This document shows, in pieces, positions 2,291 to 24,308 of a stretch of DNA of 26,207 bases (position 1 is the stretch's first letter; each line of letters opens with the position of its first letter). Location: the IMG/VR virus record IMGVR_UViG_3300029309_000302, positions 1 to 26,207 of that record. One strand, written 5' to 3'. Below the pieces are notes generated by a model, which ran no database searches, was not told the DNA's origin, and saw nothing but the letters and a program-made list of their open reading frames with translations. Made by a program: the position numbers and the translations under genes. The DNA is from a virus.

Positions 2291-3754
2291 ATGGCATTGA
2301 CTAACGTACTGAAGACGTACTACAATGATTCGCAGATGACTGACACCAATTCGTTGGTCAATGCGTTGTTGGAGAAGCCAGAAGAGCTCTCCCCAATTAT
2401 CACGCACCTTGCAGGTCGTGAAGAGAAAAAATTCCCATTGTCCTTTATGACAGAGGGTGTCGGTAACACTAAGTCTATCGACCGTTTTGAATATGAATAC
2501 AGAGTGAAGACTCATGAGGTGAACGTTCGCCCAGTGGTTTCTGCAAATGGAACTGGTGCTGGTGGATCAACCTTTACTATTGTTTTCCCAGACCGCTGGT
2601 TTGTGTTCCCATACACGCTCGTTTCTGAGAGTGGTGTTCTTGCACGTATTATGGAAGAGCCTCGTCAGGTAAGTGGTGGGTATGAGTACATAATGAAGCT
2701 TGTATCTCCGGATGCTGCAGCTCTTTCTGCTACAGATACTAGTGGAGATCTTTCTCCAGGTTCAATGTGGGGCATGCTGTTCGCAAACGTTGGAATCGAC
2801 TTCTCTCGCGGAAACGCTTCTAACTGGAGTGCACCCGGCTTGGTGAGATCTAAGATTGGTACTGTTCGTAAGTCTTACCAGTTCTCTGGTAACGCTAAGG
2901 ACTATGTTGCTGAGTTTGAGCTCCCATTGAAGGAAGGTTCTAGCACTCGTTTGTGGATGGACTATGAAGAGTATCGCCACATGTTGAAGTTTAAGGAAGA
3001 GTGTGAGATGTACTACTGGTACGGCCAGAAGACTCATGACTCTACTGGAAAGACTCAGATGGTGGACGAAAATGGACAGCCAGTTGTTTCTGGTCCTGGT
3101 CTCTTCGAGCAGATCATCAACAAAGACACGTACTCTACTTTGACTCAGAAGAAGATTGAGGACGTGATTGGTGACTTGTTCTACGGAATGACTGACGCTA
3201 CCGATAAGCAGGTGACATTGTTCACTGGTATTGGTGGTGCACGTGAGTTCGACAAGGCTCTTCGTAACTACTACGCTAATGGTATTAGCTCTACTAGTGT
3301 AAACACTAGTGCTAATAACTCTTACCTCAGAACTACTGAGTCTAAGTTTATCACAGGTAGCGGTCGTAGCCTTGGTATCACTGGTTACTTCACTTCGTAT
3401 GATCACGTCGATGGTCACACAGTGAACGTGGTCAAGGTTCCATTGTTCGATCATGGTCCTGTTGCTCAGGCTTCTCGTAAGCACCCTGACACTGGATTGC
3501 CACTCGAGTCGTACAGAATGACATTCGTCGATCAGTCTACGTATGACGGAGAGAACAACCTCCAGATGATCAATAAGAAGGGTCGTGAGATGTTGCGTTG
3601 GGCTGTTGCTGGTTCTGTTGTGCCTAAGGGCTTCACAGGATCTGACACTCGCGCAAGTGATATAGACGGTGCTTCTGTGCACATGTTGAAGACAGCTGGT
3701 ATCCTGCTCCGCAGATTCGATACTTCGCTTGATTTGCAGTGCACTGCATCGTAA
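2291..3754 (+). CDS. Major capsid protein (HK97-fold-like, crAss-like group)
   Basis: A 487-residue protein of the expected size for the capsid subunit of crAss-like and related phages. The N-terminal ~60 residues are helical. The C-terminal part has the look of this MCP group: LFTGIGGAREFDKALRNYYA, then SLGITGYFTSYDHVDGHTVN, VPLFDHGPVAQASRKHPDTG and ENNLQMINKKGREMLRWAV. Hundreds of copies would form the icosahedral shell. Codon use is distinct from most neighbours: CGT for Arg, TTG for Leu, AAG for Lys and GCT/GTT are favoured, where the 7639 tail gene uses AGA, CTA/TTA, GTA and ACA. This fits very high expression. A GC-rich hairpin follows the stop codon. The scaffold precedes it and connector genes follow. 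The HK97 fold is inferred from family resemblance, not from a visible motif. Confidence 0.82.
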   Translation: MALTNVLKTYYNDSQMTDTNSLVNALLEKPEELSPIITHLAGREEKKFPLSFMTEGVGNTKSIDRFEYEYRVKTHEVNVRPVVSANGTGAGGSTFTIVFPDRWFVFPYTLVSESGVLARIMEEPRQVSGGYEYIMKLVSPDAAALSATDTSGDLSPGSMWGMLFANVGIDFSRGNASNWSAPGLVRSKIGTVRKSYQFSGNAKDYVAEFELPLKEGSSTRLWMDYEEYRHMLKFKEECEMYYWYGQKTHDSTGKTQMVDENGQPVVSGPGLFEQIINKDTYSTLTQKKIEDVIGDLFYGMTDATDKQVTLFTGIGGAREFDKALRNYYANGISSTSVNTSANNSYLRTTESKFITGSGRSLGITGYFTSYDHVDGHTVNVVKVPLFDHGPVAQASRKHPDTGLPLESYRMTFVDQSTYDGENNLQMINKKGREMLRWAVAGSVVPKGFTGSDTRASDIDGASVHMLKTAGILLRRFDTSLDLQCTAS

Positions 3755-3887: not shown

Positions 3888-4694
3888 ATGAACAGAAAAA
3901 TTTACATACGCCGTAAGGAGACACACAGTTATCTCCCGAAGGAAGTGAGACTAGGAGCTCGCGTTGCAATTGGTTCTATATTCGTAGGACGTCAACCACT
4001 CAGAGGAGTGGAAGGAGAAGAGGCAAAAAAATACCTCCCAGGTATAATTGGTCTACCAGCTGAACACCCAGATTTCCCTGCTAGGGAAAAAGATTACTGG
4101 GCTAGTATGAGAGTTAAGATCCCATTTGAGGGTAAAGAACTCGATATTAGCACTCATGAGAATGGAGATCCCATTAACGTAGAGGACTATATTACATACA
4201 AGTGGTGCTCTAAGCATAGACAGGTAGCTGATAGCAAGGAGGAAATGGATGCCGTCTCTGGTAAGAAGTTCTACATATATGATCCTAAAAAGGATCTGCT
4301 CAAGAGGAACAAAAGAGTTCAGATATCTAAAGATGCAGATAAAGAGTTTATCAAGGCATCTGCAGATGCAGCTAGAATGAGAAGATTGTTGAGGGTGTTG
4401 AGTAATTCTAACCCAGACAAGCTCTCTGCACTAGAAGTAGAAAACAATCTGTATGATATCAAAACAAAGAATCCTGCTAAGTTCTACAAGGCAGCTACAG
4501 ATAAAGACTTAGATCTTAAGGATGAGATCGCTGAAATGATACAGAAGGATATCATCCGCAAGATTGGGAACCAACATATTCACGGAGATGAAACTCTCGG
4601 TGAAGATTTGACAGATACAATAGTGTATTTTAAGAACAAGAAGAACTCTGGGGCAGTAAACGCACTAAGAGCAAAACTGAAAGAAGTCAAGTGA
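3888..4694 (+). CDS. Conserved head/connector-cluster protein, unknown function
   Basis: A 268-residue protein resembling hypothetical proteins next to the capsid gene in crAss-like and other Bacteroidota phages. The recognisable N-terminal half has KYLPGIIGLPAEHPDFPARE, then DYWASMRVKIPFEGKELDIS and DPINVEDYITYKWCSKHRQV. The C-terminal half is helical and highly charged, ending in NALRAKLKEVK. There is no signal peptide, membrane segment or catalytic motif. Its place between capsid and ring/connector genes and its lack of enzyme features suggest a head-completion or connector role, which is inference. The start ATG follows the paired leader repeats. The stop codon overlaps the GTG start of the next gene (GTGA). 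Confidence 0.66.
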   Translation: MNRKIYIRRKETHSYLPKEVRLGARVAIGSIFVGRQPLRGVEGEEAKKYLPGIIGLPAEHPDFPAREKDYWASMRVKIPFEGKELDISTHENGDPINVEDYITYKWCSKHRQVADSKEEMDAVSGKKFYIYDPKKDLLKRNKRVQISKDADKEFIKASADAARMRRLLRVLSNSNPDKLSALEVENNLYDIKTKNPAKFYKAATDKDLDLKDEIAEMIQKDIIRKIGNQHIHGDETLGEDLTDTIVYFKNKKNSGAVNALRAKLKEVK

Positions 4695-5875
4695 CAATAG
4701 AAGAGATGCATATAGCAGTCAACCTGGGAGTCCAAAAGATTGGGTCTTTCCAGGTTGATAATCTCTTGCCTGAAGAGATTGATCATGAGCTAAACTTAGC
4801 TCAGCGTCGTTTCATCAAGCAGAGATACTCATCTACATCCAACCAAAAGGGTGTAGGCTTTGAGCAGTCTCAAAAAAGAATAGATGACTTAAGAACTCTC
4901 ATTGAAGATTTTACTGCGTATGAAACGTTCTACATAGGTCCTATGTATAACTCTAGTTCAAAGGGGGTAATATTCATAGATAGGGTCAAGTTGCCTTTAG
5001 ACTATATGCACCTAGTAAACGTACGCAGTAAGATATTTCACAACTGCAATGGTCCTATATCTACGTCCATTGATAATCACTTTGATCACTACCTAAGAGT
5101 ACCTGTTACCACAAGCGTAGATGGGTATAACTTAGTATCTATAAAAATACCTGATGAGACAGGCAATATACTCTTAACTGCAAAGAGTAGCCCAAACGGA
5201 TTAACCATAGATGAGTTGAGGGATGATTCCTACACACATGGAGTTGAACCTAGCTTGTCCCCTAATGATACATTTAGTGACTTGTCTAGTGCTAAAAGAT
5301 CAGCAGACTCTCCTCACGCAGACGCTAACGAGATATTCTTAAAGATAACTACAACTAACACTGATGAATCACCGTTTACTAGATACCTAGGAACTGATAG
5401 ATCTTTATCTGGTGCTTATGCAGTATTATCTTTTAAGAATGCTGCAGGAGAAACTTTTGACAGAGCTATTCTACAACCACCTGTAACTCTATCTACACAG
5501 AAAAGAAAGTTTGTGGATACAATAGTAGCAGGGTCAGGACTAGTAGTCAAACAGACCCTGTGCAAGTATGTGCAACATGATGATGTATATAAAGTATTGG
5601 ATGACCCATTCTCTTCAACAAAAGCATCAGCACCGCTGTACACAATGCAGGAAAATTTTGTAGATTTATACTCAGACCCAACTTTCGTTCCTGATAAAGT
5701 TGTAATAAAGTATTTACGGAGACCCGCTCTAATGCGTAGAGCAACAGGCAGCGGCTCCGAACTGCCCGAACACACACACGATGAGATCGTGGAGATGGCA
5801 GTGAAAAGCATCTTGGAGGCTATACAGTCTCCTAGATATCAATCACAATCTGGGGAGGTCCTAGAAAGTGAATAA
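4691..5875 (+). CDS. Ring/connector (tail-stub) protein, crAss-like type
   Basis: A 394-residue protein starting at GTG, the only non-ATG start chosen in this window. The GTG overlaps the preceding stop, and the peptide TIEEMHIAVNLGVQKIG matches the usual beginning of this family; the next in-frame ATG (4706) would remove it. LLPEEIDHELNLAQRRFIKQ and GFEQSQKRIDDLRTL follow. The C-terminus carries the typical ending, PDKVVIKYLRRPALMRRATG, then LPEHTHDEIVEMAVKSILEA and a Pro-Arg-Tyr-Gln piece. In crAss-like phages such proteins form stacked rings between portal and tail. Residues ~185-270 (Ser/Thr/Asp-rich) may be an insertion relative to shorter family members. The exact ring position cannot be told. 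Confidence 0.7.
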   Translation: MTIEEMHIAVNLGVQKIGSFQVDNLLPEEIDHELNLAQRRFIKQRYSSTSNQKGVGFEQSQKRIDDLRTLIEDFTAYETFYIGPMYNSSSKGVIFIDRVKLPLDYMHLVNVRSKIFHNCNGPISTSIDNHFDHYLRVPVTTSVDGYNLVSIKIPDETGNILLTAKSSPNGLTIDELRDDSYTHGVEPSLSPNDTFSDLSSAKRSADSPHADANEIFLKITTTNTDESPFTRYLGTDRSLSGAYAVLSFKNAAGETFDRAILQPPVTLSTQKRKFVDTIVAGSGLVVKQTLCKYVQHDDVYKVLDDPFSSTKASAPLYTMQENFVDLYSDPTFVPDKVVIKYLRRPALMRRATGSGSELPEHTHDEIVEMAVKSILEAIQSPRYQSQSGEVLESE

Positions 5876-5904: not shown

Positions 5905-7107
5905 ATGAATCAAGTTTTTGTTTCGAATCACATGGCCGGAATACAGGCCAACGCCGATCACTCCCTTTGGAGCTCTTTGGTACACACAACAGGGGCCGCT
6001 GATGGCCACGACGCCTGCATGGTAGGTATCTGGGACCCATACGGACAGCAGTTCCTCGATGGTACTACTGCCGCATTGTCTCTAATTCAAGCTCAAAGCC
6101 TTATTGGTATAGCAGAAGCAACTAAAGGTTATGCTGACTTTGTTCAAGGTACTGATGCGGGTCAGGTTACGGATGCTGAAGCCATTTCAATTGCAAGTGC
6201 AGGTGATGTTCCAATTAACTCATTGCCTACTAGCCCTGCTTTCTTGAACAGAGCGTTCCAGATTGTTCAGGCTATGCCTACAGGTAATCCAATTGCTTCA
6301 CCTATCATTCATACTAACCAGCTCACTAGATTGAAGTGGGATGTTAATGATCCACCGGTTAAGCACAAGTTGGATATTGACACTGATGCTGGCTTTGACC
6401 CAATTGTGGCAGGTGATGAGATGACGCTCGTATTGAACGTTCGTTTCCCACATGATGCTGCATTCTACGAAGCTCAGATCAACCCAAGCGGTTCTGTAAC
6501 TTCTGTTACTCCTGCTTTGTCTGCTGCTTTTGACAATACTAAGCGTATTTATAAAGTAAGCGCAATTGCTACTAACGACACTGAGGCTACGCAGTCTGGT
6601 GTTCTTGTTTCAGCAATCAATGCTGATGGTGACGTTAAGCAACTTGTTACTGCTGCAGATGATGGTAGTGGTATTACTTTGGAAGCTAACTTCTTTGGTA
6701 TGATCATCGATGCTACAGTTCTTAAGAATGGTGACAAGGCAGGTGCTGTTACTGATGAGGCGGATATGACTATTGGTGTTGGATCTTTTGCAGAAGTTCT
6801 TTCTGCTGAAAAGAAGGCACAGTACTCACAAGGCTTCTTCAACAGACTGTACCTCCCAACAGGAGATTTGCAGCATGCATCAGCAACTGCTGGTGGATTG
6901 TCATCTCAGACAGTTCTTTACAACAGACTGACTCTGGAGTATGTAAACAAGTCTGGTAAGATGCCTGGCTTCAATGGACAGGGTAACACTCACACTGCTA
7001 CTTTGTACGTGCCTAAGGCTACTTATGCTGGTGACACTACTCAGCTTGCAGTGGAGGCAACATTTGGACTCATTGATGCTACAGCATCTAAGGAGTTTAT
7101 CTGGTAA
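5905..7107 (+). CDS. Second abundant virion protein (function uncertain)
   Basis: A 400-residue protein, rich in Ala, Thr, Asp and Gly, predicted largely beta. I do not recognise the family with certainty. N-terminal pieces are VFVSNHMAGIQANADHSLWS and ACMVGIWDPYGQQFLDGTTA. The C-terminal third has QYSQGFFNRLYLPTGDLQ and ends in IDATASKEFIW. No signal peptide, membrane segment or catalytic motif is seen. Codon use resembles the capsid gene (GCT, GTT, AAG, TTG, CGT) rather than flanking genes, and like the capsid gene it is followed by a strong hairpin. Both point to a protein made in many copies, such as a tail-tube, capsid decoration or other major structural protein. It has its own AT-rich leader with AAATTTTG (5874-5881), near the TAnnTTTG box. 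Confidence 0.62.
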   Translation: MNQVFVSNHMAGIQANADHSLWSSLVHTTGAADGHDACMVGIWDPYGQQFLDGTTAALSLIQAQSLIGIAEATKGYADFVQGTDAGQVTDAEAISIASAGDVPINSLPTSPAFLNRAFQIVQAMPTGNPIASPIIHTNQLTRLKWDVNDPPVKHKLDIDTDAGFDPIVAGDEMTLVLNVRFPHDAAFYEAQINPSGSVTSVTPALSAAFDNTKRIYKVSAIATNDTEATQSGVLVSAINADGDVKQLVTAADDGSGITLEANFFGMIIDATVLKNGDKAGAVTDEADMTIGVGSFAEVLSAEKKAQYSQGFFNRLYLPTGDLQHASATAGGLSSQTVLYNRLTLEYVNKSGKMPGFNGQGNTHTATLYVPKATYAGDTTQLAVEATFGLIDATASKEFIW

Positions 7108-7638: not shown

Positions 7639-10600
7639 ATGGCATATTCATCAAGTAAACCGACAGGAGCCAAGAGCCAAAAGAGTTCTAGTTTTAGTTC
7701 AAAAGGAACTAAGAAGAAGGTAAGTAAGGTATCAACGTCTGGAACTTCAACTACGGTTGGGACTACACAGCCTATACAGGAAGATGATAGTACACGTAGT
7801 AGTGGTGCTGTAAGAAACGTTACTGAGCCTAATTATTATGCTGCGAGACACTTCTATGTAACACCTGGAAGTACAAGAGATACAGGAAGTGCCCTAGCCC
7901 CTACTACGGTCCTATGTCCACTCAAAGTACACCTAGGGACACTTGGACCAATAGGTCAACCAGATGGAAGTATAGCTAGTAATAGCACAGGACAACTATG
8001 GACAGGGGGCCAGGGATTTGCTGAAGTAACAGGTGTAGTTCCTATTAAAATAATAAGAGCGCACGATGGGTTTACATATACGGGCAAAGACGTAGTTGAT
8101 AGAATAGATAAGGTAACTTACGACTACAAAAAAGGAGGTCATAAAGTAATAACAGTGCACTATGACACGGAGACTACTGGTGACACAGTCTTTGAAAACT
8201 ATCTTCACTCAGTTGCACTGCAGATATTCTTTAGTGATGGATCTAAAGTAGAGGTAACGCAGCCTATAGTAGCCGGTAACATAGGAGAGACTAAACCCAT
8301 AAAGGAGGATAACACGATTACGTTTTACAATAACGATGTAGGTAATATTGGGGGACTAGAGTGGGAGGATATAAACGGTGTCTTTGATGATGAGTTTAGC
8401 ATAATATCTGCAGGATCGTTCTTTTCAGGAAACTATGTATACGCTGATGACTCATTCAGTTTTCACAAACACTACTACTGGGGTACAGATCCTAAAGGGG
8501 ATAGAATAGGAACTGTATATAATCAGCAGGTCCTAGAGACTTACACTAACTCTACAAGCCGGTCAGGTTCACTAGATAGTCAGCAGACTGGAGTATGGGA
8601 CTGGGATGAAAGATACGCTATAGGATACGCCAGTAATAACTTTGCAACTAAAACAGGAGCCGATGGATTTGATTACTCCGCAGCCTTAAGCAGTGTAGGA
8701 TCACAATACTACACTTTGTCTAAGTATAATATTACTGGGGCAGTGTTAGGGAGTAACGCCCCACAATGGGGGGCGGTAAATAGTGTTGGTTATTGGAATG
8801 CAAGTGAGACTGCGGCTGCTCTTTCACAGGCCCCATCAAACAGATTTGCACCTGTAAATGCCTACTATAATGGTGGTAAAGGCACTACCATTAGACATGC
8901 TGGCATGTGTATAAGCGTCCTTGGTGATGGAATAGATATAGCTAATGTAATGGCCGGTGAACTTACTGGTAAGCACCGAAGGGGCACACAATTAGCTTTA
9001 GCATTAAGAGCTTTCTTAAAGGGTATGTACACAGACAGCGACTTTGGTGGAGGTCCTAACTATCTACAGGGTACAATTCTTGCCTGTGACGAGTTTAATG
9101 TAACATCTGAAATATTTAACAACGGGGAAACAGTTGATGCGTACTGCATATCACAAGAAAATACTCAAAACGTGACGGGAGGCGCGTCGGTTTTTACCGC
9201 TTCCAACGGAAATGACACTTTTGTAAATCTGTTAGTAGGAAATAGAAATTCAGCCTTTAACGCAATAGGAGTTGACTCTTTATCAAAGGCACAGTATGCA
9301 GTATTTGCCGCTACGATGGGAATGTCTTACAGTCCTGAAACGGATGAAATTAGTACGGAGCAAGATTATGCGTCAGCTTGTTTCATCACGAACGCTTCCT
9401 CCGAAGCTGGTAAAGGGTTCCTACTACCGTTCAACGTAAGAAACGGGAATAACGATACTGGTTTTAATACCAATTTTGGGGCAAACTTAGAACCACTGAC
9501 TAATTCACCAAATTATATAGGGAATGTTCGTATAATCATGAAGCCTTTCTTGTCACACGTAGAGTTTCCTGTGAGTGCAAGTGGTCAGTATAAAGCCTTG
9601 GTTAGAGACCCAGGTCAACAGGATGCAATTATTTCTGCAACATCTAGCGAAGCAGTGGAGTTTGCATCTGCTCAAGGGGTTCCTGACTTCATAGAGTCTA
9701 ATCTATACGAGAGTCCTATTATACAAGGTGCTGTAAATGCATTACCAACCTTGTTGAACCTAGGTAGTTTTGCAAACATAGCGTATACGTCTCCTACAAG
9801 CGTAGCAAACTGTGATCCTCTGAGTCTTTTACACGTTGACCCTAAGTTAGACGCTTTAGGATATCAGAGTCCAAACCAGACTGTACCTTATAGCTTAAGC
9901 ACTAGGCAACCTTGGGGTAGAGTCAATGGAGTTCCTAAAGAGCAACACTATATAGCTGGGGGCATAGACTATTTTAGTGATAACGCTAAGTATCGGATAA
10001 CTGTTTTCCCAAAAAGTACTTTAACTAACCCTAGTACAGCTGGGTCTCCACAGGGCCCAGAGGTAGAGTTTCTTATGAAACAGTTATACAATTCTGGTAT
10101 TAGACTACCTAATGTATTAACCTTTGAGGGTACAGATATAGGAATTAGCGAGTTTGGTGGTGGTATATTTCAATTAAGTGGCTTCGCTAATTATCAATTT
10201 AAGAGTGGTCTAACAGCAGAAGGTCAATCTCAAGAGAGTTCAAATACTTTAGGTAACACACTAGACATATATGACTTCACATATGTACCAGGTAAGAATC
10301 TTTTAGATAATGCTGGATTCCCTATAAATACTGATACTGTATCCCCAAATAGCGAGGTTACAGGTTCAGCACCAGAAGATTTAAACATCGTTACGTTCAT
10401 TCCTAATGGAGAATTTACGGATACTAGAGTCCTTTTGACATCAGAGGGTCCAGATCTTGATAGGCCATTTATTGACATAGATATAGAGGATTTAGCTGGA
10501 GAGAACTATAACTTGATTAATGATCAAGGTTTGCAGTTCAATACTGTAAGTAGACTGTCTCTTAACAAAAACTTAGGGCACATTGGTAGTGAGCCTACTG

Positions 10601-13600
10601 GTCAGGTATCTGAATCTCCATTTAGTTTAAACTTTGACTTCATAGTGTTTGGATTAACTGATTTTGAGATTGGTCCCCCTGTAGAGGAGATAGTAGGGTG
10701 CACAGATCCAGCAGCTAATAACTATGATGAAGAAGCCAATGTTGATAATGGTAACTGTATATACTGTAGTGAAAATGCTCCAGGAGATGTCGTAGATCCA
10801 CATGAGTTTATATCAGAAGGCATAGGAGGGGAGGTATTAGACGCTCCAACTGTAATAAGTAATAGTGACGCATACGGAGGTCTACAGGTGGTAAATACCG
10901 ATTGGTACGTGGGCAACCTTGGAAATGCTGTAAACTTTTCAAATCCATTACAAGGTGTAGCTGCGGATAATCCTAGTGGTACTTCACAATGGACTTCATT
11001 CCAAGCCGTTTTTAACGTAGAGGCTTCAGCCATCATCGGGGCAGCTCAGAATGGTGGATCAACAGTTAGCACTGAAGAGTGGTTAAACTACTGGACTACT
11101 TCCGTAGATGCAAGTTCTTTCAGTCTTCTTATATTTAACATAGACGCATTTGATTCAGATTCATTTGAATGGGCTAGTCAGTCAGGGGTAACAGCTTACA
11201 ATAGCTTACCAATAGTAGAGGGAGCCACAGCAGTTACAGTATTAGAAAACCATGGTACCGCCGTAAACCCTAAGTTTGGTACGCAGGAGGGTGATGTAGG
11301 CAACGTTAGTCTAGGGCTAGAAGCAGGTAAACACTATGCAGCTATACTAAGAATAGAAATTAAAGAGTGTAATCAAGACTATTTTATGGCTTTCAACTTC
11401 TGGGTTTTGTACTGTGACTGTGAAGACAACACTGCACTAAACTTCGCAGGTAATGATTGGTCATATCCTTGGAGTGATGAAAACTCTTACCCTGCAGGAT
11501 ATAGTAATAGTGCCTTCTCATTCTGTACTAGTGGACAGTACAGTAGCAGAACATGGCTAAGATCTAAGAGAAGTAGTGAGACGGACGGTCTATGTCGATA
11601 CCCAGAGCCATATGTAGACTGTAACGAGTTTATAGATTTCTGTATAACATCGTCAACCTTTGAGTGTGAGCTTACTGGTAACATAGTTGATGGATTCACC
11701 AACATAGGAAGTGGTAGTGTATACGTAAATGTATTTGGGGTGTATACAGGATCGGACATAATAGGCCAAGAATACGCTTTGGTAGTTAACGGTCAACTGT
11801 TTCAGTTTGTACTGCAACTGATTGAGGTAGGTACAAATGAAGTAATTCAAGAGGTGGCAGTAACAAATATAGATGACTATGCTGCACTAGGTGCTCCAAA
11901 TCCACAGAACGTAAATGGTGTAAACATAGCGTTTAACAATGTATCACAAGGACAGTACAATGTAGTCCTTAACCAGATAGGTGAACTATTCCCGGGTCAA
12001 GACCCAGAGGCCGGTCCATGTCTGGGACTATCACCTAATGGTACAATAGGCACAGTAAACGTAGGGGAGGGTGAAAACTGTGAAGAAGTGGTCGGAGGAT
12101 GTTGTGATCCTACAGCAATTAACTATGTAGAAGGCTGTACTGATGAAGTAAACGGCATACCATTTACCGTATATGATGATACATGTGAGTATTTTGACTG
12201 CAGCAATGTATTTCAGAGCGTAAGAATAAATGGCTTTTCAGTCACCAACTCATTAGCAGAATGTGCCACCCAAGAGGTAGACACAGACGGAGATGGAATT
12301 CTTGATACTACAGAAAACTTCTTAGGGGACACAAGTAGTGGGGGAGTCACATTTACAGTCTTTGACCCTGATGAGCCTACACCATTTAACATAGCAGTAA
12401 TTGCACTAGTTAATGGTAATGAGAGTGACGCTCTGGAAACTTTGCTATCATTTTATGATGCGAATGCTGAACAAATAACAAGTAATAATACAGCTAACGC
12501 AATACCTATAACTCAAGGTAGTACTGTTGTAGGAGGGTATCTCCCAACAAATGTAGTTACAGTCCCGCAAGGTATGTTTTCTGCAACAGGCATGTATGCA
12601 GGCAACTTCTTAGCATTTGCACTACCACATACCATAGACCCAGCTTTCACCCTTACAATATGTGAGGAGCAACAATTAGAATTTGCCAATGACTTTGTTA
12701 GATTTAATGTGCTGCTTGACACTTCATTTATTACGGATTGCAACGAGCCTTGTAATGAGCAAGTGAATCCTGAGGATTGTGATGACTACGTAGGAGGGTG
12801 CACAGACGTTTCAGCTACTAACTTTAATGAAAATGCTAATTATGATGATGGAACATGTGAATACGGGGGTACAGAGACATGTATAACTAACCCAAGTCTG
12901 CCAGAATGTGAGGAGTGTGAAGACGAACAGGGGGTGGGTCTTAGAAACTGCGATGAAACCTTTGGTAACGGGGAGGGATGTGGCGACCCACAAGCATGTA
13001 ATTACAATCCTGATGCCTTGATACCTGTTCCCGCACTATGCGAATACTGCTGTGATGGTGATGAAAACTGTGTAGAAAACGAAGATGAGGACGATTGTGA
13101 AGATGAAGATGGTAATGTAGATCCTAACTGTACAGATCCTACATGTCCAGATCCTACTAACCCACAATGTGATGAGGTTGTAACTAACCCCTGTCCTACT
13201 GAAGCAGAATGTCCACCACCCCCAATCCCTGACTGTATAGCACTAGGAAACTGTGATGATGGGGGACCTGGAACTGGAGACCCTTCAGTAGACATAGAGG
13301 ATGAGGTAGTAACTATAGAGGTGTCTTGTGATCCTATGTTCAACAACCAAGATTTTGAGACTTGGAGAACAGAAGCTATGACCTGCTCTGCAAATGAGGG
13401 CAGTAAGATGTTATTCAAGCTCAGAGCTGGTGTGAAAGATCACAATAAAGACGATTTGGTTAAACTTACTCTGATTAACTATCTGTTTAACCAGGGTGTA
13501 GATTTACCATGCTTGTTTAGCTGTGACGAGTATGACAATAAAACACAGAACACTAGGTATAGAGATGTAGATTGTGCAAACAAGTGGAGAACAAACGGGT

Positions 13601-13965
13601 CTCAAAGATGGACACCCAAGAGCACGTTTAATCAAGGAGATACAGTAAGGATACTCAGAAACGTCAGAGGTAAGACAGTAGCATCCTACTTTATAGCTAA
13701 AAAAAATGTACCAGCACAACAGATAAGACCAGACCAAAGAGGTGTAGATAACGAGTACTGGGTAAGATGTATAAATGTCAGAGGACAGAAGAGCACCACA
13801 CCAAATGGAGTAACATATCTAAGAACTCTATATGAGTTTATGCGCAAGTTCTGTGAAAACTGCAGTATAGCAACCTTGAGTTCAGGAACAGCTGAAAACG
13901 AAACCAAGCCCCCATCTATGGATACAGGGCTCAGGGACAACGATGACTTTGAAATAACATTCTAA
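7639..13965 (+). CDS. Giant tail / host-contact protein with GCTD-type Cys repeats
   Basis: A 2,108-residue protein, the largest in the window. Residues 1-60 are Ser/Lys/Thr-rich and probably disordered. A beta-rich body follows to ~1010 (SFHKHYYWGTDPKGDRIGTV; LQGTILACDEFNVTSE; YKALVRDPGQQDAIISATSS). From 1020 it changes character: Cys repeats of the form GC-D-A-NY...DG-C begin near 1020, 1486, 1720 and 1780, with a degenerate unit near 1262, separated by beta domains. DTDGDGILD (1548-1556) fits a thrombospondin-3/EF-hand-like calcium loop. Residues ~1805-1870 are a Cys/Asp/Glu/Pro-rich linker, and ~1895-2108 form a mixed C-terminal domain. Size, modularity and the fibre gene just after it suggest a tail or receptor-contact protein. 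The repeats are typical of exported Bacteroidota proteins. No enzymatic motif was recognised. Confidence 0.68.
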   Translation: MAYSSSKPTGAKSQKSSSFSSKGTKKKVSKVSTSGTSTTVGTTQPIQEDDSTRSSGAVRNVTEPNYYAARHFYVTPGSTRDTGSALAPTTVLCPLKVHLGTLGPIGQPDGSIASNSTGQLWTGGQGFAEVTGVVPIKIIRAHDGFTYTGKDVVDRIDKVTYDYKKGGHKVITVHYDTETTGDTVFENYLHSVALQIFFSDGSKVEVTQPIVAGNIGETKPIKEDNTITFYNNDVGNIGGLEWEDINGVFDDEFSIISAGSFFSGNYVYADDSFSFHKHYYWGTDPKGDRIGTVYNQQVLETYTNSTSRSGSLDSQQTGVWDWDERYAIGYASNNFATKTGADGFDYSAALSSVGSQYYTLSKYNITGAVLGSNAPQWGAVNSVGYWNASETAAALSQAPSNRFAPVNAYYNGGKGTTIRHAGMCISVLGDGIDIANVMAGELTGKHRRGTQLALALRAFLKGMYTDSDFGGGPNYLQGTILACDEFNVTSEIFNNGETVDAYCISQENTQNVTGGASVFTASNGNDTFVNLLVGNRNSAFNAIGVDSLSKAQYAVFAATMGMSYSPETDEISTEQDYASACFITNASSEAGKGFLLPFNVRNGNNDTGFNTNFGANLEPLTNSPNYIGNVRIIMKPFLSHVEFPVSASGQYKALVRDPGQQDAIISATSSEAVEFASAQGVPDFIESNLYESPIIQGAVNALPTLLNLGSFANIAYTSPTSVANCDPLSLLHVDPKLDALGYQSPNQTVPYSLSTRQPWGRVNGVPKEQHYIAGGIDYFSDNAKYRITVFPKSTLTNPSTAGSPQGPEVEFLMKQLYNSGIRLPNVLTFEGTDIGISEFGGGIFQLSGFANYQFKSGLTAEGQSQESSNTLGNTLDIYDFTYVPGKNLLDNAGFPINTDTVSPNSEVTGSAPEDLNIVTFIPNGEFTDTRVLLTSEGPDLDRPFIDIDIEDLAGENYNLINDQGLQFNTVSRLSLNKNLGHIGSEPTGQVSESPFSLNFDFIVFGLTDFEIGPPVEEIVGCTDPAANNYDEEANVDNGNCIYCSENAPGDVVDPHEFISEGIGGEVLDAPTVISNSDAYGGLQVVNTDWYVGNLGNAVNFSNPLQGVAADNPSGTSQWTSFQAVFNVEASAIIGAAQNGGSTVSTEEWLNYWTTSVDASSFSLLIFNIDAFDSDSFEWASQSGVTAYNSLPIVEGATAVTVLENHGTAVNPKFGTQEGDVGNVSLGLEAGKHYAAILRIEIKECNQDYFMAFNFWVLYCDCEDNTALNFAGNDWSYPWSDENSYPAGYSNSAFSFCTSGQYSSRTWLRSKRSSETDGLCRYPEPYVDCNEFIDFCITSSTFECELTGNIVDGFTNIGSGSVYVNVFGVYTGSDIIGQEYALVVNGQLFQFVLQLIEVGTNEVIQEVAVTNIDDYAALGAPNPQNVNGVNIAFNNVSQGQYNVVLNQIGELFPGQDPEAGPCLGLSPNGTIGTVNVGEGENCEEVVGGCCDPTAINYVEGCTDEVNGIPFTVYDDTCEYFDCSNVFQSVRINGFSVTNSLAECATQEVDTDGDGILDTTENFLGDTSSGGVTFTVFDPDEPTPFNIAVIALVNGNESDALETLLSFYDANAEQITSNNTANAIPITQGSTVVGGYLPTNVVTVPQGMFSATGMYAGNFLAFALPHTIDPAFTLTICEEQQLEFANDFVRFNVLLDTSFITDCNEPCNEQVNPEDCDDYVGGCTDVSATNFNENANYDDGTCEYGGTETCITNPSLPECEECEDEQGVGLRNCDETFGNGEGCGDPQACNYNPDALIPVPALCEYCCDGDENCVENEDEDDCEDEDGNVDPNCTDPTCPDPTNPQCDEVVTNPCPTEAECPPPPIPDCIALGNCDDGGPGTGDPSVDIEDEVVTIEVSCDPMFNNQDFETWRTEAMTCSANEGSKMLFKLRAGVKDHNKDDLVKLTLINYLFNQGVDLPCLFSCDEYDNKTQNTRYRDVDCANKWRTNGSQRWTPKSTFNQGDTVRILRNVRGKTVASYFIAKKNVPAQQIRPDQRGVDNEYWVRCINVRGQKSTTPNGVTYLRTLYEFMRKFCENCSIATLSSGTAENETKPPSMDTGLRDNDDFEITF
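10696..13047 (+). repeat. Dispersed GCxD protein repeats in the giant tail protein
   Basis: Four clear units start at 10696, 12094, 12796 and 12976. Their shared form is Gly-Cys-x-Asp, then Ala-x-Asn-Tyr/Phe-(Asn/Asp), then acidic residues and a closing Cys, about 24 residues in all. Example starts are GCTDPAANNYDEEANVDNGN and GCTDVSATNFNENANYDDGT. The units differ at DNA level, so they are old or selected rather than recent duplications. Confidence 0.8.
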
Positions 13966-16825: not shown

Positions 16826-17962
16826 ATGACAGTAAATGAAATAAAAAGTTTCCTAGAAGAGAAACCAGGTTACTTAAAAAAGAGTGCAGAGGCACTCTCA
16901 GGCCGACTAGAGTGTTCTGTTGAACTATGTGAGACTGCACTTTACGAAGCACGAAAGAAAGCTAAGGGACAGCCTGAAGATAACGCTAACAGTAATGACA
17001 GTGTTATCACAGAGTTCCAAACGTTCCTTGACAAAAATGGCATCGCACCTGCTGATGTATCTAGCGTAAAGTTCTGGCAGACTGTGTCAGGACAACAAAG
17101 ATTCTCTGTAGTTACAAAGGGAGAGTCTATGAGCGTAGAAGCAATTAAGCAGGAGATTGAGGAGTTTGCAGCTAGTTACAGCCCAAAGGCTGCAAAGGTT
17201 GAGTACAAACAGTTCTCTGACCCTGTAGTGTATGAGGTATCTCTACCTGACATACACTATGGTAAACTCCACAATCTATCACTAGAGCAGGTAGAAGAAA
17301 ACTATCTAGCAGTAGTCGGTGACTTGATGGCAAAAGCACAAGGACTACAGATAGAAAGGATATTGCTACCTATAGGCAATGACGGTATGAACTCAGAAGG
17401 GCTTCGTATGTCAACCACAAAAGGAACACCACAACAAGACAATGGTAGTTGGAAAGACACATTTAGAGGCTATTGCCAGTTAATAGTGTATGCTATAGAC
17501 TATCTAACTACAATAGCTCCTGTTGACGTACTAGTGATATCTGGTAACCATGACTATGAACGCATGTTCTATGCAGGAGATGTTCTTGCAGGATGGTACA
17601 GAAACGATGCCAACGTTAGTGTGGATAATGATTACAGTTCTCGAAAGTACTATGAGTACGGACAGAACATGCTAATGTTTACACACGGCGACAAAGAGAA
17701 ACCGGCTGATATGCCATTGATAATGGCTACAGAACAACCGGAGATGTTTGCTAGAGCTAAGCACCGTGAGGCACATTGCGGACATCTTCACAAAGAAATG
17801 GTTAATGAGTACAGAGGTATCAAAGTACGGTTTCTACCATCTATTTGTCCTAACGATGAATGGCACAAGCAGATGGGGTACGAAGCTAAACGAACAGGGC
17901 AAGCATATATATGGAATAAGCAAAGAGGACTTGAAGGCTATTTACAAACGAATGTTATTTGA
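16826..17962 (+). CDS. Calcineurin-like metallophosphoesterase
   Basis: A 378-residue protein. The N-terminal ~50 residues are helical (EIKSFLEEKPGYLKKSAEAL), a linker follows, and the phosphoesterase domain begins near 135. All five metal-binding blocks are visible: DIH (D142, H144), GND (184-186), GNHD (240-243), THGD (286-289) and GHLH (319-322). These bind two metal ions that hydrolyse phosphomono- or diesters. The substrate is unknown; in phages such enzymes are variously linked to nucleic-acid or nucleotide cleavage. The helical N-terminus may bind DNA or a partner. The position between holin and connector genes, not in a replication module, is notable. The gene overlaps the next one by 11 bases. 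Confidence 0.88.
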   Translation: MTVNEIKSFLEEKPGYLKKSAEALSGRLECSVELCETALYEARKKAKGQPEDNANSNDSVITEFQTFLDKNGIAPADVSSVKFWQTVSGQQRFSVVTKGESMSVEAIKQEIEEFAASYSPKAAKVEYKQFSDPVVYEVSLPDIHYGKLHNLSLEQVEENYLAVVGDLMAKAQGLQIERILLPIGNDGMNSEGLRMSTTKGTPQQDNGSWKDTFRGYCQLIVYAIDYLTTIAPVDVLVISGNHDYERMFYAGDVLAGWYRNDANVSVDNDYSSRKYYEYGQNMLMFTHGDKEKPADMPLIMATEQPEMFARAKHREAHCGHLHKEMVNEYRGIKVRFLPSICPNDEWHKQMGYEAKRTGQAYIWNKQRGLEGYLQTNVI

Positions 17963-18900: not shown

Positions 18901-19242
18901 ATGGGATTAAATACAACAAGAGAAAGACTGCTAGATAAGCAGGTAAAAGCATCACAAGCTAGTAAAGCAGCCAATGAGTCAGTATCATCCACAAACAAGC
19001 TGTCACTTGGCGATAACGGCTGTGTGATGATCAATGGCAACGCTGCTCAAAGTGTAAGTGCAGGAACGTACTTCGCAGTACAGTTCTTGAAAGCATGTAC
19101 TCCTACAGCTCTTACCATAGGTAGTAGCACAACTGTTACTGGACAAGAGATACCTGCAGGTACTATACTCTACGGAGATATCACAGCCATCACTGGTGAC
19201 AGTGGGGCATTGTACGTACTATATAAAGGTGATCCTACGTAA
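18901..19242 (+). CDS. Small virion-associated protein, unknown function
   Basis: A 113-residue protein. The first ~35 residues are helical and Lys/Ser/Ala-rich (RERLLDKQVKASQASKAANE) and look like a docking segment. Residues ~36-113 are beta-like (SVSAGTYFAVQFLKACTPTA, then QEIPAGTILYGDITAITGDS). An A-G-T-Y-F / A-G-T-I-L pattern of this type is common in small capsid- or tail-associated proteins of marine phages. Its stop codon shares a base with the next start (TAATG), linking it to the LamG-like gene. No signal peptide, membrane segment or enzyme motif is seen. Confidence 0.55.
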   Translation: MGLNTTRERLLDKQVKASQASKAANESVSSTNKLSLGDNGCVMINGNAAQSVSAGTYFAVQFLKACTPTALTIGSSTTVTGQEIPAGTILYGDITAITGDSGALYVLYKGDPT

Positions 19243-20015
19243 TGTCTTTAGGACTGGGAACAAATATCACAAAAGTACCATACCCGTATCCTACGGGAGG
19301 CGCTGTCGAGACACAGAACTACTCTGTGTACTTAGACGGAGCTAGTGATCGTATACAAGGACCCAACCTGGCAAGTACTTGGTTGCAGGTCTTTGATGCA
19401 AATGCTGAGTTTAGTCTACACTTTGCTGTAAAGCTAGACGCTCTAAACTCAACTATAAGCTTTACTGGTACGAGCACTACCTTCTTCTGGATACAGGTAA
19501 ATTCAGATGGCGACTTAAATATTTCAGCCACAATTAGCGGCGGCCTTGTGGGTAATGTGACATTTGACACTAGTATGTCTACCGGCACGTGGTATGATAT
19601 AGTCATTACAGCAACTAATGATACAACTAGATCCTTTATTTGTTACGTAAACGGTAGTGCGGTAAGCATATTGACCACAAATGCTGCATTTAACGCTTCA
19701 GCAGATATAGCTGCTATATCAGGTAAGTTCACCGTGGGTACCTTCCTGAACGTAATAGACTATGACCTTAGAATAGATAGGCTTGCTTCTTGGAGCACTG
19801 TTCTTACTGCTGCTGAAGTAGCAGAGATCTACAACAACTACCCAGATCTTACAGCGGACTCAGGAAACTATGCTGAATCTGCCAGACTGGTAACATACTA
19901 CAAGATAGAAGAAGGATCAGGCACTACCATGTCAGATAGCTCTGGTAATAGTCACAGTGACCTCACTGTTGTCAACGCAACTGGAAACTTCTGGAGTACA
20001 GATACTAGAATATAA
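19242..20015 (+). CDS. LamG/concanavalin-like jelly-roll virion protein
   Basis: A 257-residue protein. After a short N-terminal arm (SLGLGTNITKVPYPYPTGGA), residues ~26-195 show the LamG_3-type pattern: NYSVYLDGASDRI, FSLHFAVKLD, TGTWYDIVITATNDTTRSFI, CYVNGSAV and a YDLRIDRLASWSTVLTAAEV...IYNNYPD segment. The C-terminal ~50 residues (LVTYYKIEEGSGTTMSDSSG) are the recurrent companion motif of these domains. LamG-like jelly rolls often bind glycans; on a phage this would serve surface attachment. It is coupled to both neighbours by TAATG overlaps. Cytoplasmic synthesis without a signal peptide supports a virion part. The ligand cannot be inferred. Confidence 0.75.
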   Translation: MSLGLGTNITKVPYPYPTGGAVETQNYSVYLDGASDRIQGPNLASTWLQVFDANAEFSLHFAVKLDALNSTISFTGTSTTFFWIQVNSDGDLNISATISGGLVGNVTFDTSMSTGTWYDIVITATNDTTRSFICYVNGSAVSILTTNAAFNASADIAAISGKFTVGTFLNVIDYDLRIDRLASWSTVLTAAEVAEIYNNYPDLTADSGNYAESARLVTYYKIEEGSGTTMSDSSGNSHSDLTVVNATGNFWSTDTRI

Positions 20016-20271: not shown

Positions 20272-20544
20272 ATGGCAACACCCGCATGGCAAAGAAAAGC
20301 AGGCAAGAGTAAGTCAGGAGGACTTAATGCTAAAGGTAGAGCCTCATATAGAAAAGCTAACCCTGGTAGTAAACTTGCTGCACCCGTAACAGAATCAAGC
20401 CCTAAGGGTAAGAGAGCAGGACGCAGAAAATCGTTCTGTGCTCGTATGTGTGGAATGAAATCCCGCAGAACCGGAGCTAAGGGTAAAAGAGATCCAAACT
20501 CACGTATTAACAAAGCACTTAGAAAGTGGAGATGCAGATGCTAA
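20272..20544 (+). CDS. Small basic PAWQRK-type phage protein (DUF6321-like)
   Basis: A 90-residue, strongly basic protein. It opens with ATPAWQRKAGKSKSGGLNAK and GRASYRKANPGSKLAAPVTE, and continues with GRRKSFCARMCGMKSRRTGA and DPNSRINKALRKWRCRC. PAWQRK-GLNAKGR(A)SY followed by a RRKSFCARM block is a conserved phage signature, which I believe corresponds to DUF6321. Function is unknown; charge and size suit nucleic-acid binding or packaging with DNA. Four cysteines, including a Cys-Arg-Cys end, might bind metal. Its stop codon shares a base with the ATG of the exported T9SS-type protein. Confidence 0.8.
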   Translation: MATPAWQRKAGKSKSGGLNAKGRASYRKANPGSKLAAPVTESSPKGKRAGRRKSFCARMCGMKSRRTGAKGKRDPNSRINKALRKWRCRC

Positions 20545-22604
20545 TGAAAAACTTACTTACTATATTATTCATAGGGCTGTCTAATATTATAGCAGCACAA
20601 CCAAGCTGGGTTAACCTAGAGTTTCAGACCGACGCATACGGAGGTGAAAGCACTTGGGAGATATACATGGTTGGGTCTGACAGCACTTTTGTATCAGGAG
20701 GACCCTACCCCGACTCTTCTTATACAGAACAGCTAATACCTCTACCATCAGGTGAATACAACCTTGTAGTCAGCGATGCTTTCGGGGATGGTATTTGCTG
20801 TCAGTTCGGTGAGGGATGGTTTAAACTAAACAATGACTGTGGTCTTGACCTGTCAGTATTTGACTTCAGCACAGAGCAGATAACAGTTCCTTTTGTCTTA
20901 GAGCCGTGTGCTCTTCCTATTCCTGGATGTACAGACGATGCATCTAATAACTACAATCCGTGGGCCACTGTAGATAACGGCACATGTAATGTAAGCGAAT
21001 GCCCAGAAGGTCAGGCCTTTGTATCTATGGAGTTGACCTTAGATAACTGGCCCAACGAAACTGGGTTTACCCTTGTTGACCTAGCTGTTGGTCAGTTCTA
21101 TGAGCAGGTGCTACCAGGAGGATTTAACTTTGGGGATCAGCTAGCCACATACACCTACGACTTCTGCGTAGCACTTGGCTTTGAACTTATTCTGACAGAC
21201 ACATACGGAGACGGACTCAACGGGTCGGCAAGTGGTGGTCAAGACGGAGGCGTGGTCATCACTGCATGCGACGAGGAGGTTGTCTGGGAGCTAGAAGATT
21301 TGGCCTACTCAGACAATAACGGAAACGTTCACTATTCGGGAGCTGTGTTTGTAGAGCCCTGTGCCCCTGACAGCGTAATAGTCGGATGTATGGACGACGA
21401 TTACGTTGACTACAACCCAGAGGCTACAGCTCAAGACACATGTGAGGTTCTACATACTTGGGGATGTATGAACCCAGAAGCATTTAACTACGACTCAACT
21501 GCTACTATCTCAGACCTCAACAGTCCGTGCCTTACAACAATAAGAATCGGTGACGCAGCAGGTGACGGTTGGGGTAATTCACATATAGGTGTTAAGCAAG
21601 GTGACTTGCAGTGGATCTTTACCATGGGTCCTGGTCAGTTTTCTCAGTCATGGGACTTGGTGTTAGACTCTGATGAAAAGGTAGATATATACTACTTTGA
21701 GATAGGGGGACCGCAACAGCCTCCACAAGAGACTGAGTTTCAGACACTGCACAACTCTGTTCTTGTCACAAACGAGCTAGGTGACACACTCATGGTTGAA
21801 GGTCTTAATCCATTCTTCGACAACGGACAGGGTGCTCTGCAACCGTTCAAGAACCCAGAGTGGAATGTATACAGCTTCATGCCATACTGCGGCACTAGCT
21901 GTGTCCCGTTTACGTATGGATGCACTGATGAAACTGCACAGAACTATGATTCTGAAGTCAACACAGAAGACGGTAGCTGCTACTATAACGCTGGGTGTAC
22001 ACAAGCTGGATACCTAGAATACTACACACAAGGATATGATGCAGACTACGACGACGGATCATGTGAGACGCTGGCGGTCTTTGGATGCACTAATGCAGAA
22101 GCACTTAATTATGAGCCTGAAGCCAATGTAGACAATAACAGTTGCATAGCTGTAGTAGAGGGCTGCATGGACCCCGACGCATACAACTACAACGAGGAGG
22201 CTAATACATCAACACAGTGTCTGTACGATGCAGGATGTGTAACAGGTCCAGGGGAACCATACTGGGCCAACGATTACTGCTACACGTGGGTTATCGAAGT
22301 TGATCCCTACTGCTGTGAAGTTGGATGGGACGCAACTTGCATAGAACTATATGACTACTGTGGTAATCAAACGTCTAGTGTAGATATGACTGTTCAGTCT
22401 TTGCTTCACTTCTTCCCTAATCCTACAAATGGAGATATTCGTGTACAAGCTCCTATAGGCACAATTATTACAGTTATAGACGCCTCAGGTAGAAAGGTTA
22501 TAGAAACACAAGACACTAGAATACACCTACCATCCGCAGGTGTATATGTAATTATGGCTAACTACAAGGGCCGAATCAAAAAAGAAACAGTAGTAAGGCA
22601 ATGA
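20544..22604 (+). CDS. Exported repeat protein with T9SS C-terminal sorting domain
   Basis: A 686-residue protein. I chose ATG 20544, which overlaps the preceding stop (TAATG) and starts the signal peptide KNLLTILFIGLSNIIAAQ; in-frame ATGs at 20526 and 20532 lie inside the previous gene. DxxGDG-type beta domains centre on 78 (DAFGDGICC), 219 (DTYGDGLNG) and 337 (DAAGDGWGN). GCxD repeats start at 128, 281, 307, 459, 484, 514 and 540. A Cys-rich module spans 579-606 (EVDPYCCEVGWDATC). The end (612-686) has the type A T9SS sorting pattern: FFPNPTNGDIRV with PNP at 625, TVIDASGRKV, then LPSAGVYVIM and a basic KETVVRQ end. In Bacteroidota such proteins cross the inner membrane by Sec and the outer membrane by the type IX system, and are anchored on the surface or released. 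In a phage late operon this implies display on the infected host cell. Confidence 0.88.
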   Translation: MKNLLTILFIGLSNIIAAQPSWVNLEFQTDAYGGESTWEIYMVGSDSTFVSGGPYPDSSYTEQLIPLPSGEYNLVVSDAFGDGICCQFGEGWFKLNNDCGLDLSVFDFSTEQITVPFVLEPCALPIPGCTDDASNNYNPWATVDNGTCNVSECPEGQAFVSMELTLDNWPNETGFTLVDLAVGQFYEQVLPGGFNFGDQLATYTYDFCVALGFELILTDTYGDGLNGSASGGQDGGVVITACDEEVVWELEDLAYSDNNGNVHYSGAVFVEPCAPDSVIVGCMDDDYVDYNPEATAQDTCEVLHTWGCMNPEAFNYDSTATISDLNSPCLTTIRIGDAAGDGWGNSHIGVKQGDLQWIFTMGPGQFSQSWDLVLDSDEKVDIYYFEIGGPQQPPQETEFQTLHNSVLVTNELGDTLMVEGLNPFFDNGQGALQPFKNPEWNVYSFMPYCGTSCVPFTYGCTDETAQNYDSEVNTEDGSCYYNAGCTQAGYLEYYTQGYDADYDDGSCETLAVFGCTNAEALNYEPEANVDNNSCIAVVEGCMDPDAYNYNEEANTSTQCLYDAGCVTGPGEPYWANDYCYTWVIEVDPYCCEVGWDATCIELYDYCGNQTSSVDMTVQSLLHFFPNPTNGDIRVQAPIGTIITVIDASGRKVIETQDTRIHLPSAGVYVIMANYKGRIKKETVVRQ
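20925..22220 (+). repeat. Seven GCxD protein repeats in the T9SS-type exported protein
   Basis: Units start at 20925, 21384, 21462, 21918, 21993, 22083 and 22161. Their form is GC(T/M)(D/N), then A-x-NY-(N/D), then an Asp-Gly/Asn run and Cys, for example GCTDETAQNYDSEVNTEDGS. The unit near 21993 is degenerate. The form is the same as in the giant tail protein encoded about 8 kb upstream. Confidence 0.85.
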
Positions 22605-23939: not shown

Positions 23940-24308
23940 ATGAAAATTGTTCTATCAGTTGCATTATCATTTCTACTATTTTCAACGGCGGTACTTGTAT
24001 TGCCGGGGGAGAGTGCACCAGAAATACCTGATACGGGTATTTGTGTAGTAGAATTTAATGCTCAATTTAACGCCTCAAACTCAGTTCCTTGGGTTGAAGA
24101 TATAGATGATTGTACTAGTGCCAGGATAGATATAGCAACTAGTCCAGAACTACAAAGAAATCATAAGATAGTTGTTGTGCCCACTATTGTAGTATTTAAC
24201 GAAGGAGAAGAAGAGGTAAGATTTCAAGCGAACATTATGATGCAGCTAGAAGCGTCACAAAAGGATGTGCAGGAAGCTGTAGACGAAATCATCATGGACT
24301 CGTTTTAA
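23940..24308 (+). CDS. Exported thioredoxin-fold protein lacking CxxC
   Basis: A 122-residue protein with an N-terminal signal peptide or anchor (KIVLSVALSFLLFSTAVLVL). The rest follows the thioredoxin pattern: CVVEFNAQFNASN (35-47) aligns with the strand and active site VVDFWAEWCGPC, putting N44-A-S-N47 exactly where C-G-P-C belongs. Then comes a helix, RIDIATSPELQRNHKIVVVP with the cis-Pro loop P81-T, and VVFNEGEEEVRF. Without both cysteines it cannot be a normal thiol oxidoreductase. C35 and C58 remain and could pair. It may be a binding or chaperone-like thioredoxin domain in the periplasm. It follows the small membrane protein by 8 bases. I preferred ATG 23940 over 23933 because only this frame gives the signal peptide. 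Confidence 0.68.
   Translation: MKIVLSVALSFLLFSTAVLVLPGESAPEIPDTGICVVEFNAQFNASNSVPWVEDIDDCTSARIDIATSPELQRNHKIVVVPTIVVFNEGEEEVRFQANIMMQLEASQKDVQEAVDEIIMDSF

Follow-up and report, generated by a model that had tools for sequence, protein, structure and literature searches.

A giant cysteine-rich protein encoded beside a tail hub-like gene in an uncultured crAss-like phage

Introduction

Excerpts of the structural account of phicrAss001 describe a tail barrel and docking hubs stabilised by disulfides, the hub consisting of tail hub protein A (THA, gp38) and tail hub protein B (THB, gp39, 114 amino acids (aa)) with a docked fibre, gp22 (PMC10172136). In portions of another study, surface-protein modules in tail-region proteins have a precedent in the BACON repeats of crAssphage, and proteins of crAss-like phages are noted to bear type IX sorting domains (PMC6949934); part of a further report gives such domains for a cryoconite phage (PMC7468147). 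Here we analyze a 26.2-kb virus record (IMG/VR IMGVR_UViG_3300029309_000302; the whole stretch is called the window) that encodes a giant Cys-rich protein, P0001, directly after a small gene, g8. Judged against those excerpts, this locus resembles the phicrAss001 tail hub in its gene order, in the predicted hub-A-like fold of g8 and in the cysteines at the hub, whereas its domain in the hub protein B slot forms one chain with about 1900 further residues, which comprise a Cys-rich stalk and a variable head. Like the BACON tandem-repeat proteins in the portions cited, P0001 would be a crAss-like tail-region protein that uses a surface-protein module of Bacteroidota, but its module is GCxD/Cys-rich, its anchoring is presumed to be C-terminal, and it belongs to no Pfam family. 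GCxD modules are also shared with Bacteroidota proteins secreted by the type IX system, from which P0001 differs in having neither a signal peptide (by eye) nor a sorting domain. The accessible portions of the open-access literature yielded no description of a Cys-rich hub-fused protein. We propose, with a probability of roughly 60%, that P0001 is a hub-anchored, Cys-laced tail appendage of the virion, with its cysteines most likely paired as disulfides and its variable N end pointing outward.

Results

Relatives of P0001 were gathered with a g8 profile, which gave 64 loci containing g8. The gene directly after g8, i.e. in the slot of hub protein B, encodes either a P0001-like giant or a small protein: a complete giant open reading frame (ORF) follows g8 in 26 loci and a protein of 134-161 aa in 20, and 18 loci are cut too early or within the giant. 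All 26 complete giants (999-2553 aa) lie directly after g8, and each bears at least two full GCxD modules. The profile of the giants' C terminus was matched by every one of the 17 small proteins scanned, out of 20 (30-53 bits; E-values for the 17-sequence set), and hhalign gave a probability of 98% for the small protein against that C terminus. These matches indicate, at the level of sequence, that the giant consists of the conserved small protein extended at its N terminus by a large additional part.

Conservation was calculated over 20 non-redundant giants, window included, allowing 19 comparisons with the window. Identity in the N half ranged from 13 to 37% and was lower than that in the C half in all 19 comparisons, and the length of the N-terminal part varied from 370 to 1358 residues. 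Because the N half changes faster and the C terminus is homologous to a small protein encoded next to the hub-A-like gene, the C terminus probably lies at the virion, on the docking hub, with the variable N terminus facing outward. The preliminary description of this DNA had placed the tail tip in the C-terminal half, which is not supported by the homology of the last ~200 residues to a free-standing protein beside the hub-A-like gene or by the faster change of the N half. Its guess that P0001 is a tail protein gains from the gene order and the neighbour's fold, which support a tail-hub position; the virion location and orientation of P0001 itself we infer.

The genes upstream of P0001 form a virion block (Table 1). 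By tblastn, the major capsid protein of the window matched 143 records, all at less than 60% identity. The order major capsid protein, gp33-like protein, tail ring protein, auxiliary capsid-like protein, g8 and P0001 agrees with that of phi14:2 and phicrAss001, and hhalign profiles of the genes between the capsid gene and g8, compared with phi14:2 plus phicrAss001 proteins, gave probabilities of 95.6%, 93% and 52% for the gp33-like, ring and auxiliary-like genes, respectively. The annotation of the capsid gene and of the counterparts g089, g088 and g087 in Cellulophaga phage phi14:2 comes from tandem mass spectrometry proteomics. The major capsid protein places the window virus, as an uncultured virus of bacteria, among the crAss-like phages (Crassvirales).

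The product of g8 most probably is tail hub protein A, as judged from its predicted structure. All ten of its cysteines, including those of CTCKC..C, are invariant over 20 aligned sequences. The model (predicted local distance difference test score (pLDDT) 81, predicted template modelling score (pTM) 0.66) aligned with chain W of the phicrAss001 tail assembly, 7qol_W, over 132 of 153 residues (Z 8.5, root-mean-square deviation 3.8), and no other structure among the matches listed exceeded 84 aligned residues; gp38 belongs to entry 7qol. Comparison with 7qol_W and with BFVD showed the tail hub protein A fold, an N-terminal beta domain followed by helical hairpins. The best BFVD matches were an unnamed protein (E 6.2e-7), a structural protein of phi17:2 (E 7.4e-7) and a cr118_1 protein; full-length matches included the phi17:2 structural protein (TMq 0.75) and proteins of cr118_1 and cr111_1. 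Ranked seventh was a 206-aa cr111_1 protein (TMq 0.50), equal in length to the cr111_1 homologue of gp38. By sequence, phi17:2 gp058 forms a weak bridge (E 0.025 to g8, E 0.0015 to the gp38 family). Against PDB, a four-sequence g8 profile found just DnaK chains (E 0.056 and weaker) and a 20-sequence profile one designed protein (E 1.3).

The C-terminal domain of P0001 is presumed to be a docking-hub domain beside hub protein A. In ten gut loci, a gp39 match lies directly after the gp38 homologue in nine, and the tenth, L211, has an ORF there. The P0001 domain is poorly modelled within the C-half model, and its hub-domain profile found nothing in PDB by sequence at E<=10. phi17:2 gp057 and gp056 were also checked as hub protein B candidates, with no match.

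The cysteines of P0001 are concentrated in its C-terminal part: residues 1-1010 hold 6 (0.59%) and residues 1011-2108 hold 51 (4.64%), compared with 35 in 5529 residues (0.63%) across 23 further ORFs of the window, not counting g8 and g20. The GCxD motif starts at 1020, 1487, 1499, 1720 and 1780, with 1487 and 1499 sharing one module, and its frequency is beyond chance, as five or more copies appeared in none of 20,000 C-half shuffles (mean 0.35, maximum 4). The preliminary description spoke of dozens of cysteines in GCxD repeats; the C half is indeed very Cys-rich, but the four modules account for only ~10 of the 51. The Asp/Glu/Cys linker and DTDGDGILD that it named in the C half are both present (Table 1; linker limits approximate), and P0001 also holds CEYCC and CxxC.

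Across the 20 giants, C-half cysteines were identical to those of the window in 92% of 873 cells, compared with 53% for Trp, the next in rank, and 49% for Gly, and 23 of the 51 positions are Cys in every member; the six N-half cysteines are not conserved. Such near-invariance would be as expected of structural disulfides. Some variable cysteines change together: Cys 1979 and 2044 are both lost in L138 and L144, Cys 1782 and 1796 are gained jointly in four members, and the long and short forms of the giant are distinguished at Cys 1259/1296 and 1335/1343. Identical presence patterns were found for 12 of 91 pairs of Cys columns and for at most 1 of 66 pairs in the 12 other residue types tested. 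Co-variation and near-invariance favour disulfides, without proof.

Structure prediction of the C half gave three better-modelled, mainly beta regions in the stalk (about 1124-1259, 1325-1484 and 1525-1664) with Cys-rich linkers between them, but overall confidence was low (AlphaFold2, mean pLDDT 60, pTM 0.30). The ten-residue mean pLDDT of the three regions was 54-91, with a single dip to 40. The model bears a weak likeness to fibronectin type III (FN3) arrays (Z up to 7.9); by Foldseek and VIA-align, the matches listed comprised FN3-like arrays together with unrelated proteins of beta or mixed type, at Z <8, and no phage tail protein was among them.

DTDGDGILD occurs once in P0001, and a motif of this kind arose in 86 of 20,000 shuffles. 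A DxDxDGxxD loop also occurs in thrombospondin type 3-like calcium repeats, but P0001 has a single copy and no array, with no Pfam family at E<=0.1. At the aligned site, a DxDxDG-type loop is present in 3 of the 20 giants (the window, L121 and, with Glu as its final residue, L125). A like motif lies elsewhere in L150, and no motif of this form occurs in the remaining 16. By this alignment, the calcium loop is a trait of a few relatives and not of the family, and a conserved role of calcium is disfavoured.

No family in Pfam, PHROGs or NCBIfam matched P0001 at E<=0.1, no PDB entry matched it by sequence at E<=0.1, and tblastn found no match among INPHARED phages. As a lone query against viral contigs it gave no pattern match. 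The small protein, g8 of L157 and g21 likewise had no match among the phage collection records searched; because of this, the profiles made here could help to find a cultured member.

Table 1. Features of the window discussed in the text
Feature	Position	Strand	Remarks
Major capsid protein, crAss-like	2291..3754	+	Pfam Crass_capsid 5.5e-77, 259.7 bits vs cut-off 27; PHROG 11589 5.3e-85
Tail ring protein (R3/R4-like)	4691..5875	+	Pfam PF25710 5.4e-5, 23 bits, below cut-off 27; hhalign 93%, 3.5e-7 to phi14:2 g089 and gp34
g7, auxiliary capsid protein-like (phi14:2 g088 / phicrAss001 gp36)	5905..7107	+	hhalign probability 52%, E 1.5e-4: suggestive
g8, tail hub protein A-like, 153 aa	7166..7627	+	Ten invariant Cys, predicted fold
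P0001, giant Cys-rich tail-appendage protein (putative)	7639..13965	+	2108 aa, stop included in coordinates; single ORF
Variable N-terminal part, residues 1-1004, presumed outer/host-facing end	7639..10650	+	Low identity, variable length
Cys-rich stalk, residues 1005-1889	10651..13305	+	AlphaFold2 model and weak FN3-array matches
GCxD module 1, residues 1020-1040	10696..10758	+	Both Cys kept in 20/20 homologues
GCxD module 2, residues 1487-1516, two overlapping GCxD	12097..12186	+	Cys 1488, 1516 in 20/20; Cys 1489, 1500 not conserved
DTDGDGILD, calcium-loop-like, residues 1548-1556	12280..12306	+	At site in 3/20 non-redundant members
GCxD module 3, residues 1720-1740	12796..12858	+	Both Cys kept in 20/20
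Acidic Cys-rich linker, residues 1741-1880	12859..13278	+	Mostly missing from five shortest of 20 homologues
GCxD module 4, residues 1780-1801	12976..13041	+	Cys 1781 in 20/20
C-terminal domain, residues 1890-2108, presumed docking-hub (THB-like) end	13306..13962	+	Homology to free-standing ~140-aa phage protein
g14, metallophosphoesterase / DNA repair exonuclease	16826-17962		PHROG 704, 1.6e-58
g17, Concanavalin A/LamG-like domain	19242-20015		PF13385, 1.4e-10
g20, GCxD protein	20526-22604		Signal peptide by eye; type IX sorting domain
g20-g23, four-gene phage cassette	20526-24308		Loci L003-L082
g23, secreted thioredoxin-like	23940-24308		No CxxC motif

Discussion

In the reading that we favour, the last ~200 residues of P0001 would form a docking-hub domain next to g8, made as a separate ~140-aa protein in relatives. 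N-terminal to it would stand a stalk combining beta-sandwich-like domains with GCxD/acidic Cys-rich linkers, of the type found in Bacteroidota surface proteins, leading to a variable half that would point outward and probably contact the host. After release of the particle, the conserved cysteines would most likely form disulfides with one another, which would stiffen both the stalk and the hub, much as disulfides stabilise the phicrAss001 tail. The disulfide state, its timing and a receptor role are likewise inferred. Because a solved crassvirus tail is disulfide-stabilised, disulfides here are plausible by analogy, not paradoxical.

Several observations weigh against this reading. The assignment of 7qol chain W to gp38 follows from topology and numbering; many FN3-like domains score as high as 7qol_W or higher against the g8 model, over ~80 residues. 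By sequence, g8 and gp38 are not significantly similar (hhalign E 0.022), the helical part of g8 scoring 15.6 against gp38 when a column-shuffled control reached 19.6, and profile comparison by hhalign gave no match between the C-terminal domain of P0001 and gp39 (E 0.64 and 0.77). Confidence in the C-half model is low (pTM 0.30). Most of the 12 Cys pairs with identical patterns trace to the single long/short split, the number of C-half cysteines is odd in 12 of 20 members, including the window (51), and Cys 1489, 1500, 1515, 1811 and 1813 change singly. Some cysteines, such as those in CTCKC..C of g8, may instead bind metal.

In this alternative, the cysteines, those of the hub domain and g8 at the least, would be ligands of zinc or iron-sulfur clusters that work in the reducing cytoplasm during assembly. 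CxxC/CxC clusters, the ten g8 cysteines invariant in 20 sequences, and CEYCC and CxxC in P0001 are consistent with this; we nevertheless consider it unlikely, as some variable cysteines come and go in twos (1979/2044 and 1782/1796), disulfides are reported for solved hub proteins in the available part of PMC10172136, and neither Pfam nor NCBIfam gave a metal-binding family match. The idea of the preliminary description, a release-dependent switch in which the intracellular stalk would be reduced and soft and would gain competence for infection only after Cys oxidation and calcium binding in seawater, is consistent with the strictly conserved cysteines, the missing export signal and the calcium-loop motif shared by the window, L121 and L125 at one site. 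Its calcium part is disfavoured by the absence of the loop from that site in 17 of 20 members, the excerpts of PMC10172136 report tail disulfides with no mention of a switch, and plain stabilisation fits the present data equally; the switch is thus possible, yet not needed, and we regard it as rather improbable.

Two further alternatives start from the GCxD modules. These are usual in exported proteins, as the preliminary description held: of six GCxD ORFs examined outside the phage-type contig in one Flavobacteriales metagenome-assembled genome (MAG), five start signal-peptide-like by eye, the sixth reading with X's, and the window itself encodes one such protein, g20. P0001 could thus be a non-virion protein exported to and displayed on the infected cell, but we judge this very unlikely. 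Inspection revealed no signal peptide (the N terminus reads MAYSSSKPTGAKSQKS, and residues 1-30 are Ser/Lys-rich), Pfam and NCBIfam detected no C-terminal sorting domain, the C terminus is homologous to the small protein adjoining the hub-A-like gene, and the gene sits in the virion block. A specific interaction between the stalk and the g20 protein secreted by the same phage, for example as a decoy in superinfection exclusion, would suit the presence of GCxD modules in both proteins and of both genes in the window as well as in the L006, L015 and L061 records. Yet G059 and G061 (63 and 89 kb) have the giant without g20, G074 and G075 have g20 with the small form, and P0001 found no match, or one of <90 residues, in 46 of 50 cassette records searched, which may be incomplete. 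The two occur apart, and this highly improbable link was dropped.

Within the favoured reading of P0001 as a hub-anchored appendage, we tentatively consider a fibre fused to the collar instead of docked on it, so that the appendage would belong to the collar: a hub protein with an N-terminal, disulfide-laced GCxD stalk and head (~800-2350 residues), locked by cross-links after lysis and varying at its distal N end. In the boldest form, the reducing cytoplasm may keep the fibre flexible during assembly and oxidation on release may arm it. A phage-encoded thiol oxidase, sought only as thioredoxin (PF00085), was above the cut-off in none of 29 records; 7 of the 29 had matches below the cut-off, in frames that at 116-124 aa are similar in length to g23. 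If true, the fused arrangement would be a tail-fibre architecture of reversed polarity, fused to the docking hub and built of modules that otherwise mark exported Bacteroidota proteins, with Cys as its most conserved trait. P0001 would allow the timing of virion disulfide formation, inside the cell or after lysis, to be addressed at a defined site.

Neighbouring genes

Downstream of the tail genes lies the four-gene cassette g20-g23, which encodes a type IX-secreted GCxD protein, a 348-aa outer-membrane-barrel-like protein (by eye), a 94-aa membrane/coiled-coil-like protein and a secreted thioredoxin-like protein. In the g20 family, 16 of 17 members scanned matched TIGR04183 at E<=0.01; g20 of the window scored 22.4 bits, just below the cut-off of 23, and 17.6 against Pfam's 27. 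A survey matched 108 stretches, of which 80 loci were kept, and all four genes were present in each of the 51 loci whose flanks extend >4 kb to either side of g20. The carriers are phages of clearly different gene content, including head or replication genes, and the cassette and the giant tail protein are each found without the other, making the cassette a separate finding. It possibly serves in host-surface remodelling or exclusion. The thioredoxin-like g23 (thioredoxin model 1.1e-3, 19 bits vs cut-off 96.8) accompanies the cassette. Four g21 matches were found in the genome collection: L185, L186 and L187 lie on phage-like contigs binned in MAGs, and L188, a match of 41 residues near the end of a chromosomal-looking contig, was not reproduced by translation of the stretch recorded for it. 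In one phage, two g20-type GCxD genes (690 and 411 aa) adjoin each other (L011:9953-13254), which suggests duplication within the cassette.

Between the tail genes and the cassette, g17 perhaps encodes a further appendage. g14 lies amid tail and lysis-type genes, and a calcineurin-like gene is likewise found among the tail and lysis genes of phi14:2.

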